A stretch of DNA of 64,000 bases from Quadrisphaera sp. INWT6 (GTDB taxonomy: Bacteria; Actinomycetota; Actinomycetes; Actinomycetales; Quadrisphaeraceae), in contig NZ_VUOH01000005.1 in the NCBI RefSeq assembly GCF_015390235.1, forward strand, positions 1 through 64,000. Reading direction: 5' to 3'. Shown here piece by piece: positions 2,047 to 39,486 of this stretch; the stretch's first letter is position 1; each line of letters begins with the position of its first letter. The position numbers and the translations under genes were made by a program. A model generated the notes under the pieces. That model searched no databases. It was not told where the DNA came from and saw only the letters and a program-made list of their open reading frames with translations.

Positions 2047-2058
2047 AACTCATCTCCT

Positions 2059-2152
2059 CCATCGGTCCTGGCGGGAGCACCTGCCGTCCCGACGGTGCGG
2101 GGGCTGGTTGCTGCGGCGTCGACGAGCCAGGTCTCTCGGCCGCTCTGGATGG
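2059..2152 (-). promoter_or_regulatory. SAM-I (S-box) riboswitch
   Basis: On the minus strand the P1 arms are CCATC (2148-2152) and GATGG (2059-2063). The conserved S-box core is present: ATCCAGAG, then GAGAGACCTGGCTC, GACGCC, CAGCAACC and, after a P3 stem, GGTGCTCCC. The Shine-Dalgarno of the flavin reductase (GGAGGAG) begins inside the 3' P1 arm. SAM binding should therefore hide it, giving a translational OFF switch. The start codon lies 13 nt beyond P1. Confidence 0.93.
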
Positions 2153-2160
2153 TCGGGGCG

Positions 2161-21912: not shown

Positions 21913-22100
21913 GGAGGTTCTCCAGGGGTCGTCGACGGGCGGGCGCGCACGGGCGCGCCGCGGCCCGGGGGCGGCGGGGCGGGCGGTGCTGCGTCCCCGC
22001 AGCAGGTGCGGGGGCGGGGCTGACGCGGTCAGCGGGCGTGACGACAGCGCACGGTCGTGGTCCTCGGGTCCGTCCTTACCTGGGCGGTCGCCTCAGGTCG

Positions 22101-22177
22101 GGTCATCACCCGGAGCACCCCACGACGTGGAGGGTTGCCGTCCAGCGAGCCGGGGCTTGTCGCTGGAACTCATGACC
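22101..22177 (-). promoter_or_regulatory. SAM-IV riboswitch
   Basis: The minus-strand RNA begins GGTCATGAG and ends GTGATGACC, forming P1. Between them are CCAGCGACAAGCCCCGGC, GCTGG, CGGCAACCCTCCA and GTGGGGTGCTCCGGG, matching the known SAM-IV consensus almost base for base. It lies 188 nt upstream of the substrate-binding protein GTG. SAM binding should repress the whole transporter operon. A hairpin at 21987-22004 may belong to the expression platform. Confidence 0.95.
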
Positions 22178-22186
22178 TGGGGCCGG

Positions 22187-22215
22187 AAACTAGGGGTGCT
22201 GACATGCCCTGTCAA
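22187..22215 (-). promoter_or_regulatory. Sigma-70-type promoter of the SAM-IV transcript
   Basis: Minus-strand TTGACA (22210-22215), 17 nt spacer, TAGTTT (22187-22192). Transcription would start within a few bases of the riboswitch 5' end. Confidence 0.7.
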
Positions 22216-22280
22216 GCACCTGCGCGCGCCCTCGGCGACCCGCCCGGCGCGCCCCCGCAGGTGCGCTACTGTCCCGCCCA

Positions 22281-22374
22281 CCATCCAGAGTGGCTGAGAG
22301 ACCCGGCTCGCTGACGCCACAGCAACCACCCCACGACCCGTCGTGGGCGCAGGTGCTACCGCCGGGACCGATGG
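22281..22374 (+). promoter_or_regulatory. SAM-I (S-box) riboswitch
   Basis: P1 is CCATC (22281-22285) with GATGG (22370-22374). The core shows ATCCAGAG, GAGAGACCCGGCTC, GACGCC, CAGCAACC, a strong P3 (CCACGAC/GTCGTGG) and GGTGCTACC. TACTGT at 22267-22272 is a likely -10 box with a poor -35. GAGGAG follows P1, ahead of GTG 22395. The 482-bp gap 21913-22394 is fully used by this and the divergent SAM-IV element. Confidence 0.95.
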
Positions 22375-22394
22375 AGCGAGGAGCCCCACGCGTC

Positions 22395-37167: not shown

Positions 37168-38660
37168 GCGGCGCCCTCCGCCCTGGCGCCGGTCGCCGCG
37201 GTCGCCGAGGTCGCGGCTGCCGCGGCGGTCGCCAGCGCGGCGGCGGCGAGGCCGCGGGCCAGGTCGGCCTGCAGGTCCTCGACGTCCTCGATGCCGACGC
37301 TGAGGCGCACGGTGCCGGCGGTGATGCCGGAGCGGTCGAGGTCGGCGGGGTCGCGGTGCGCGTGCGTGGTCGACGCGGGGTGCACCACCAGGGAGCGCAC
37401 GTCGCCCAGGTGCGTCATGTGCGTGAACACCTCGAGCTCCTCGATGAGCGCCTTCGCGGCGGGCCAGCCCCCGTGCAGGGTCACCGCGACCACCGCGCCG
37501 GAGCCGCGCGGCAGGTAGCGGCGGGCGCGCTCCGCGGACGGGCTGGAGGCCAGGCTCGCGTGGTGCACCTGCGCCACCTCCGGCTGCCGCTCCAGCCAGC
37601 CGGCGAGCAGCGCGGCGGACCGGCAGTGCTGCGCCATCCGCAGCGACAGCGTCTCGACGCCCTGCGTGACGAGGAAGGCGCTGAAGGGCGACAGCACCGG
37701 ACCGAAGCGGGCGGCGACGACGTGCCGGGTGCGCTCGACGTAGGCCCGGGCGCCGTGGACGTCGTGCCAGCTGCGGCCGCCCAGCAGGTCGGAGGGGTCG
37801 GTGAGCAGCGGGAACAGCGACTCGCCCGTGGTCGAGCCACCCCACGGCCCGAGGCCGGGCTCGAAGCCCTCTCCCACGACGACGACCCCTCCCAGGGCGG
37901 TGCCGTGACCGGCGAGGAACTTGCTGGCCGAGTGGACGACGACGTCGGCGCCGTGCTCCAGCGGCCGCAGGAGGTACGGGGTGGCCAGGGTGTTGTCGAC
38001 CACCAGCGGCAGGCCCCTGCGGTGGGCGACCGCCGCGACCGAGGCGATGTCCAGCACCTCGTTGAGGGGGTTCGAGATGCTCTCGGCGAAGAGCGCGCGC
38101 GTCGTCGGCCGCAGCAGCGCGCGCCAGGCGCGCGGGTCGGCGGCGTCGTCCACGAAGTCGACGTCGATGCCGAGCGCGGCGAAGTTCTCCCGGAACAGGC
38201 CGCGGGACCCCTCGTAGAGGTTCGCCGAGGCGAGGAGGTGGTCTCCGGCCCGCAGCAGCCCGAGCAGCGCGGTGGTGACCGCCGCCTGCCCCGACCCGAC
38301 GACGACCGCCTCCGTGCCGCCCTCCAGCACCGCGAGGCGCCGCTCGAGCGCCGCGGTGGTCGGGTTGCCGACGCGCGAGTAGACGTACCCGCCGCCGTCG
38401 CCGGAGAAGCGCGCCGCGGCGTCCTCGGCGTCGTCGAACCGGAAGCCCGCGCTCAGGTGCAGCGGGGCCACGCGGGCGCCGTGGCCGTGGTCGCGGGCGT
38501 CGCGGGGGTCGTCACCGCCGTGCACCTGCTGGGTGCTGAAGCCCCGGTGCGGACCGGCTGCCGCGCGCGCCGCGGGGTGCGGGGCGGGACCGGGCAGCGC
38601 GGGCTGCACCGGTCGCACGGCGTGGGAGGGGCGGGGCAGGGCGAGGGTGGAGTCGACCAC
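37164..38660 (-). CDS. metY: O-acetylhomoserine sulfhydrylase-like PLP enzyme
   Basis: 498 aa from GTG 38660. It is a Cys/Met-metabolism PLP enzyme with GFSTQQVHGG, YSRVGNPTTAALERRLAVLE, SGQAAVTTALL and the PLP lysine in SASKFLAGHG. EALE-type TLATPYLLRPLEHGADVV and THLGDVRSLVVHPASTTH are also typical. The length (family 420-440) reflects a Pro/His-rich N-terminus of about 45 residues and an Ala-rich tail. It makes homocysteine from O-acetyl- or O-succinylhomoserine and sulfide. It lies behind an S-box riboswitch and a leader peptide, as expected for methionine synthesis. MetZ or cystathionine gamma-synthase remain alternatives. Confidence 0.88.
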   Translation of the reverse strand: MVDSTLALPRPSHAVRPVQPALPGPAPHPAARAAAGPHRGFSTQQVHGGDDPRDARDHGHGARVAPLHLSAGFRFDDAEDAAARFSGDGGGYVYSRVGNPTTAALERRLAVLEGGTEAVVVGSGQAAVTTALLGLLRAGDHLLASANLYEGSRGLFRENFAALGIDVDFVDDAADPRAWRALLRPTTRALFAESISNPLNEVLDIASVAAVAHRRGLPLVVDNTLATPYLLRPLEHGADVVVHSASKFLAGHGTALGGVVVVGEGFEPGLGPWGGSTTGESLFPLLTDPSDLLGGRSWHDVHGARAYVERTRHVVAARFGPVLSPFSAFLVTQGVETLSLRMAQHCRSAALLAGWLERQPEVAQVHHASLASSPSAERARRYLPRGSGAVVAVTLHGGWPAAKALIEELEVFTHMTHLGDVRSLVVHPASTTHAHRDPADLDRSGITAGTVRLSVGIEDVEDLQADLARGLAAAALATAAAAATSATAATGARAEGAA

Positions 38661-38750
38661 GGGGAGACCTCTCGGGGGTGCGCCCGGGTGACCGCAGCGG
38701 CGCTGCGGTGCTGGAGGGGGCGCGGGGTGGCGGGGTGGGCGGGGCGCTGG

Positions 38751-38843
38751 TCAGCGCCGACAGCCACCGGTGGCCGCGAGGGCGAGGTCGATGTGGAGGC
38801 GTCGCACGAGGCGAGGCAGGGCGGGGTCCGGGCGGCGGTTCAC
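38751..38843 (-). CDS. Putative leader peptide of the R-x-H-x-D-L family
   Basis: 30 aa from GTG 38843, 9 nt after the riboswitch P1, with GGAGGAG overlapping P1. The peptide has RRLHIDLALAATGGCRR near its end, matching the actinobacterial leader-peptide pattern R-x-H-x-D-L followed by a late Cys. Such peptides commonly precede sulfur-metabolism genes and are thought to sense cysteine by attenuation. It ends 90 bp before MetY. The riboswitch thus appears to control translation of this peptide first, and MetY indirectly. Confidence 0.7.
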   Translation of the reverse strand: MNRRPDPALPRLVRRLHIDLALAATGGCRR

Positions 38844-38852
38844 GGTGCTCCT

Positions 38853-38945
38853 CCATCGGCGTGGCGGAAGCACCTGGCGCTGCCCGCGAGGGAGCGCTGG
38901 TTGCTGCGGCGTCGACGAGCCACGTCTCTCGGCCGCTCTGGATGG
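38853..38945 (-). promoter_or_regulatory. SAM-I (S-box) riboswitch
   Basis: The minus-strand P1 arms are CCATC (38941-38945) and GATGG (38853-38857). The core has ATCCAGAG, GAGAGACGTGGCTC, GACGCC, CAGCAACC and GGTGCTTCCGCC, nearly identical to the copy at 2059-2152. The Shine-Dalgarno of the leader peptide is inside and just after the 3' P1 arm. Confidence 0.94.
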
Positions 38946-38953
38946 TGGAGGTG

Positions 38954-38983
38954 ACGGTAGGGGGCGCGCGATCACACCGTCAA
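38954..38983 (-). promoter_or_regulatory. Sigma-70-type promoter of the MetY leader transcript
   Basis: Minus-strand TTGACG (38978-38983), 18 nt spacer, TACCGT (38954-38959). The start would fall close to the riboswitch 5' end. Confidence 0.6.
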
Positions 38984-39021
38984 GGTCGGCGTGCCCGCGC
39001 GCCCCCACCGGCTCGGCGCGG

Positions 39022-39486
39022 TCAGGACAGGGGCAGGCGCTTCCAGTCGCTGGTGTAGGCCAGGCCGCTGCGCTTGAACATCTGCGTCACGGGGCAGCGG
39101 CGCTCGGTCTCGGAGGAGAAGGTGGCGAACTGCTCCTCGGTGGCGTCGGTCTCGACCGAGACCTGCACGGCCACCTTGTCGAAGTTGGCGTTGCCCTCGG
39201 CGCCGCCGGCGATGACCGACGGGTCGAGGTCGCCCTGGATGTGGAACGACCAGCGGCCGACCTCGATGCCCAGGCCGGAGGCCACGAGGCTCCCGGTGAC
39301 CTGGTTGCAGCTGGTCAGCGCGCCCAGCAGGTAGCTCAGCGGGCTGGGGGCGGCGTCCTCGCCGCCGAAGGAGGGGAGGCTGTCGGTGGAGAAGACGTGC
39401 TCGTGCTCGCCGGCGGCCACGAGGCGCTGGGCGACGCCGGTCCCCTCGGCGTCGACGACGAACGGCACGGTCTGCTTGATGGGCAT
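39022..39486 (-). CDS. OsmC-family protein
   Basis: 154 aa from ATG 39486. The OsmC/Ohr fold shows FGGEDAAPSPLSYLLGALTSCNQVTG with the peroxidatic-position Cys, and a second Cys in ERRCPVTQMFKRSG. In OsmC and Ohr these two cysteines reduce organic hydroperoxides with a lipoyl or thiol partner. The YhfA/OsmC-like branch may have another role. It lies next to the SAM-controlled MetY unit but has its own upstream region (GGATATTCT before the ATG). Confidence 0.88.
   Translation of the reverse strand: MPIKQTVPFVVDAEGTGVAQRLVAAGEHEHVFSTDSLPSFGGEDAAPSPLSYLLGALTSCNQVTGSLVASGLGIEVGRWSFHIQGDLDPSVIAGGAEGNANFDKVAVQVSVETDATEEQFATFSSETERRCPVTQMFKRSGLAYTSDWKRLPLS

Follow-up and report, generated by a model that had tools for sequence, protein, structure and literature searches.

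Cysteine-responsive attenuators of mycobacteria are reportedly leaderless and, going by the title of Canestrari 2020, poly-cysteine. In their accessible parts, two reports describe cysteine-responsive attenuation by upstream ORFs (uORFs) in mycobacteria (PMC13236596, PMC9094748), a third presents candidate cys leader peptides that have Cys codons near the stop and for which Rho was suggested (PMC1262725), and a fourth reports that cysS of Rhodobacterales is preceded by a Cys uORF (PMC8632094). Riboswitches of Actinobacteria lay their base stem over the initiation site, again as far as the accessible text goes (PMC1262725). Combinations of a riboswitch and a uORF before a main gene occur in Mycobacterium tuberculosis, where B12 riboswitches (PMC11260477) and an Mbox followed by the rv1805A uORF, with involvement of Rho (PMC12810186), respond to other ligands; the uORFs are not presented as amino acid sensors in the portions of these papers at hand. 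The tandem attenuators of Salmonella mgtCBR read two signals, ATP and the charging of tRNA-Pro, in one leader mRNA, through two ORFs that the available excerpt describes as independent and additive, the amino acid ORF having no riboswitch gating (PMC3641672). A study of S. lividans lists its leader peptides separately from its SAM riboswitches (PMC8079986).

The locus described here lies in a 64,000-nucleotide stretch of Quadrisphaera sp. INWT6 (contig NZ_VUOH01000005.1, positions 1 to 64,000), referred to below as the window (Table 1). Like the mycobacterial and candidate cys leaders, so far as these are described in the accessible texts, it places a Cys-containing short ORF before sulfur genes and has no clear terminator; those leaders stand alone, whereas the window leader starts within the expression platform of an S-box and belongs to a type that often has a single UGU near the stop. 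Its S-box shares the overlap of base stem and initiation site with other actinobacterial S-box and SAM-IV riboswitches, but the masked site belongs to a leader peptide and not to an enzyme gene.

Table 1. Features of the metY locus and of the SAM-IV locus in the window
Feature	Position	Strand	Basis or remark
S-box (SAM-I) aptamer, RF00162	38948-38850	-	cmscan 51.7 bits, gathering cut-off 44.4
Leader ORF, GTG start, 30 aa, peptide MNRRPDPALPRLVRRLHIDLALAATGGCRR (V/M-NRRPDPALPRLVRRLHIDLALAATGGCRR)	38843-38751	-	ORF call, conservation, purifying selection
Linker, C-rich, with hairpins	38750-38661	-	composition and folding
metY (O-acetylhomoserine/O-acetylserine sulfhydrylase family), GTG start, 498 aa	38660-37164	-	PF01053
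SAM-IV riboswitch, RF00634	22177-22067	-	92.5 bits
7-codon leader VRCRHAR, Cys codon UGU, behind SAM-IV	22052-22029	-	counterpart MRCRHSR in a genome of the same genus (L231)
Peripla_BP_4 binding-protein gene after the VRCRHAR leader	21912-20857	-	PF13407

The S-box match in the cmscan of the window is full length (model positions 1-108) and passes the gathering threshold. P1 pairs a 5' strand, CCACCAUC, with a 3' strand, GAUGGAGG (38857-38850), at 7 of 8 positions, with one A.A mismatch. The Shine-Dalgarno (SD) sequence of the leader, GGAGG, sits in the 3' strand with four of its five bases paired, and the leader GTG stands 6 nt past it; across relatives the outer P1 pairs are variable, and only the first two G residues of GGAGG are paired in all. 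The metY start has GAGAGG upstream and lies 90 nt beyond the leader stop; the best NCBIfam matches of metY, NF005872 and TIGR01326, each fall under their cut-offs. Both the masked SD of a 30-aa ORF and the 90-bp spacing had been proposed in the initial annotation, and both are borne out. Because the S-box overlaps the start of the leader and not that of metY, it could act directly on the leader and on metY only via the leader or the linker, which agrees with the earlier proposal that it gates a cysteine-type leader rather than MetY itself.

The window leader has UGU as its last Cys codon, with two further codons before the UGA stop. The peptide shares the RxHxDL...C motif of the NCBIfam family NF042934 (cis_reg_atten, putative leader peptide) but reaches 17.4 bits against a cut-off of 27, over model positions 2-11 of 19. 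The motif and the near-stop UGU are both common to stand-alone actinobacterial leaders and support its placement among cysteine-type leaders.

An S-box followed by a leader is kept at the metY place in all six genomes of the genus, that of the window included. The core RRLH[IV]DLAL....GGC[RQ]R, or a similar one, is found in the other five (L051, L060, L063, L074, and L069); in L069 the contig stops at the leader end, with TGG at the stop-codon position. In Nei-Gojobori counts, pN/pS for these six leaders was 0.60 in the proposed frame versus 1.66 and 1.41 in the other two. Pooled over 11 groups (53 leaders), it was 0.65 in frame versus 1.15 and 1.36 off frame, and the proposed frame had the lowest value in 10 of the 11, the exception being a class of 8-codon S-box leaders in which coding constraint was absent (1.01). 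By this measure, the leader ORFs are under coding constraint in the proposed frame.

S-boxes were surveyed in 59 genomes (the window's own, its family, and its order), with 95 places listed and 85 classified. By script, 39 of the 85 open short ORFs, 4 have no start, and the other 42 open something else, in most cases a long gene, with a few of them cut or misparsed. A short Cys-bearing ORF is gated by 33 of the 85: 31 with a Cys codon among the last 12, one with Cys 14 codons before the stop (L090), and the one cut by the contig end (L069). One of the 31 (L055) additionally overlaps a possible start (ATGA). Seven short ORFs remain without a near-end Cys. Six of these (L007, L016, L017, L020, L033, and L086) lack Cys altogether and have their stop over the main start (NTGA, as ATGA or GTGA), which suggests plain translational coupling. 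The seventh (L066, in G004) represents a disrupted ABC-type gene, with a frame of 26 codons against the 277 aa of its G002 counterpart (L067). The +1 frame of the same stretches has a Cys codon among the last 12 in 22 of 39 cases; because one off-frame is this rich in Cys, merely having a Cys codon is weak evidence.

A pattern scan of named genomes (the 3' part of the S-box, then RTCGACCT, with no requirement for Cys) returned 53 loci, of which 45 carry a Cys leader, 6 lack the S-box core (L116, L123, L124, L130, L135, and L136), and 2 open a flavin reductase directly (L105 and L118), the last two groups being left out. The 45 come from Quadrisphaera, Kineococcus, Kineosporia, Blastococcus, Geodermatophilus, Pseudonocardia, Rhodococcus/Rhodococcoides, Williamsia, Ornithinimicrobium, and some MAGs. 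On a contig labelled Streptomyces sp. NP160, the leader is that of G002, a genome of the window's genus. None of the best 30 S-boxes by score in a class-wide sample had a Cys leader: 28 open a long ORF, L200 has no ATG or GTG start preceded by an SD, and L216 could not be placed. The contrast between 33 of 85 in relatives and 0 in the class-wide best 30 indicates that the arrangement is limited to a compact type of S-box before sulfur genes and does not extend to all actinobacterial S-boxes.

The genes under the leaders are mostly of sulfur type. Downstream clusters of a set of 78 leaders comprise 13 ABC ATPases (MetN, sulfonate, and other types), 12 family-5 solute-binding proteins, 10 MetY-like proteins, two of which are duplicates, 5 flavin reductases, and 4 members of the sulfite/nitrite reductase family; the remainder includes MetQ-like lipoproteins, rhodanese, and an NtaA/DmoA monooxygenase. 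A Rhodococcus/Williamsia group (7) presumably encodes a transport permease, and of a binding-protein-like group (6), the one member scanned (L045) had no NCBIfam match. Flavin reductase genes follow an S-box without a leader in the window's genus and an S-box with a leader elsewhere (L009, L095, L114, L138, and L143), which indicates that S-box and leader modules combine freely. In the window itself, an S-box at 2056-2155(-) gates a flavin reductase directly. Very short leaders with both Cys and Met codons (SxCMxxR, TCRM, and RMC; L045, L046, L047, and L052; L157, L158, and L163) were also seen, and perhaps both amino acids are sensed there.

The cysteine codon itself has two recurrent properties. 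In 50 of the 78 leaders, the interval between the last Cys codon and the stop is one or two codons long. After removal of four duplicates (L104, L106, L131, and L144), the last Cys codon is UGU in 60 of 74, compared with 20 of 86 earlier Cys codons in the same leaders and 4 of 104 Cys codons in downstream genes, where UGC is preferred and UGU is rare in these genomes. The same bias appears in stand-alone leaders (15 of 17), among them NF042934 members in related genomes. An attenuator would benefit from having a slow, rare codon where it senses the amino acid, and this codon ties the riboswitch-gated ORFs to the stand-alone family. With the Cys codon so near the stop, a ribosome that stalls would cover nearly the same RNA as one that terminates; the difference between them more likely lies in dwell time than in position.

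A second class of SAM riboswitch also precedes such leaders. In addition to the SAM-IV locus of the window, leaders gated by SAM-IV in relatives include MTQPPTPQRTVLTARRHIDLQRTDSAVCPR (L172), VHLSPVSHCQTLTASRRRHVDLRRTASAVCRAA (L230), and VAGSRTAGSAHAALVLVSRRHVDLQRVSSATCCC (L236), drawn from about half of the listed SAM-IV sites; many other SAM-IV sites open a long gene directly. Conversely, 14 of 33 NF042934 leader matches in the 59 genomes lie behind an S-box or SAM-IV: a same-strand upstream riboswitch is present in 11 of the 30 with loci, L253 has an S-box below threshold, and two of the three without loci are behind S-boxes. L250, whose riboswitch is on the opposite strand, was left out of the 14. 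Some S-box-gated leaders in relatives exceed the NF042934 cut-off of 27 (e.g., L242, L243, and L257).

Neither an intrinsic terminator (a G+C hairpin with a U run) nor a sigma-70-like promoter was found in a scan of 38600-39100. Linkers have a mean C content of 0.506 and a mean G content of 0.291, with C exceeding G in 52 of 53, and this bias is stronger than in either of two references, 27 other 5' stretches of the window (P = 3e-8) and the approximately 110 nt upstream of the aptamers at the same loci (P = 3e-18). Rho loads on untranslated RNA that is rich in C and poor in G. Folding with and without a stalled ribosome gave leader-specific masking of the main SD no support beyond chance: in 26 of 55 loci the real leader outdid its shuffled control (P = 0.89). 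Simple reinitiation at the main gene was rejected, the distance from Cys leader to main start (41-305 nt, median 123, 55 loci) being too long. The absence of a terminator in the scan, the C-rich linkers, and the negative masking test together favor Rho as the output step, with release of the ribosome binding site as the alternative.

Whole linkers are slightly more stable than their shuffles (mean z of -0.71, n = 53), and the whole-leader fold is ordinary (z of -0.47). At the metY locus of the window, a hairpin, GGCGCU-GACC-AGCGCC, overlaps the leader end. Across the genus, the five metY loci that are complete give it z scores between -1.6 and -7.1; because the mean over 65 leaders is only -0.34, the hairpin is a detail of metY only. 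By eye, it has one G-C/A-U double change (two species) and one broken pair (one species); the DNA alignment has no gapped loop, and covariation was left uncounted.

What can be read from the sequence is the S-box with the leader SD in its P1, the coding leader and its bias in Cys codon choice, the C richness of the linkers, and the recurrence of the arrangement. On this basis, we consider that the metY leader is probably a cysteine attenuator under SAM gating that switches on once both SAM and charged tRNA-Cys run low. When SAM is plentiful, P1 would close over the leader SD, leaving the leader untranslated and metY low. Low SAM would permit translation of the leader, and a simultaneous shortage of charged tRNA-Cys would make the ribosome stall at the rare near-stop UGU and remain on the leader end. 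There it would prevent the C-rich linker from ending transcription, most likely through Rho, and/or keep the metY start open. With plentiful cysteine, the ribosome would finish and leave, and metY would be shut down, so that expression would require both low SAM and low cysteine. What we infer in this scheme is that the leader is translated, that the ribosome stalls at Cys, in which direction each signal acts, and how the output is produced. Its extension to a regulon in Actinobacteria, with S-box and SAM-IV riboswitches repeatedly joined to Cys (in some cases Cys/Met) leaders as an AND gate for low SAM and low charged tRNA-Cys, near-stop UGU as the sensor, and Rho on the C-rich linker as the output, is put forward tentatively.

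Other readings of the locus differ in what they ask of the leader. It might be translated under S-box control as a mere relay that shields the linker from Rho or opens a structure, with no sensing of cysteine. PPE2 of M. tuberculosis, which lies behind a B12 riboswitch and needs translation of its uORF in the account given in the accessible part of PMC11260477, offers a precedent, and the C-rich linkers and the six coupling-like ORFs without Cys would fit as well. Counting against a relay, the near-stop Cys and its rare UGU persist where other positions vary and recur in stand-alone leaders, and the Cys leaders end at distances from the main start beyond ordinary reinitiation; we regard it as unlikely.

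A leader that represses, its translating or stalled ribosome lowering metY expression, would resemble the metE uORF of M. tuberculosis, whose translation suppresses MetE according to the available text (PMC11260477). That uORF is inside the aptamer, whereas the window leader comes after P1, and SAM and leader would here oppose each other on a gene of the pathway to a SAM precursor, which makes such a role very improbable. We give the least credence to a fortuitous ORF, in which case the S-box would reach metY through long-range RNA folding or solely through Rho: the frequent Cys codons in one off-frame of such GC-rich DNA would favor this reading, but the frame-specific coding constraint, the conserved motif, and the recurrence before different sulfur genes speak against it.

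Taken together, the arrangement of S-box and Cys leader is real and recurrent, and the sequence evidence backs both halves of the earlier suggestion that SAM sensing and cysteine sensing are joined in one leader. The pairing of SAM with cysteine, of which the earlier note knew no described case, looks new: in the literature searched, outside which most subscription papers fall, no SAM riboswitch was described as controlling a Cys leader. Riboswitch-controlled uORFs as such are known in M. tuberculosis (PMC11260477, PMC12810186), and so are Cys attenuators. If correct, the two-input reading would describe a natural and widespread logic gate in which a single leader RNA senses both SAM and cysteine, and would account for numerous short ORFs downstream of SAM riboswitches, possibly missed in annotation. 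Supposed direct targets of S-boxes would then be peptide mediated, which would change how their regulation is to be tested, and the rare-codon signature offers a simple way to look for further cases.

Two further observations concern the neighborhood of these elements. A stand-alone leader, LTRRLHVDLLRTASDRCR, is present in the window's own genome (L036, C2:514594) in a 3-kb locus without an Rfam riboswitch. At 22067-22377 of the window, the SAM-IV riboswitch (-) and an S-box (+) lie back to back in a single intergenic region, and similar divergent riboswitch pairs occur elsewhere in the same genome (C6, 23376/23624) and in relatives (G003 C31 and G005 C221).
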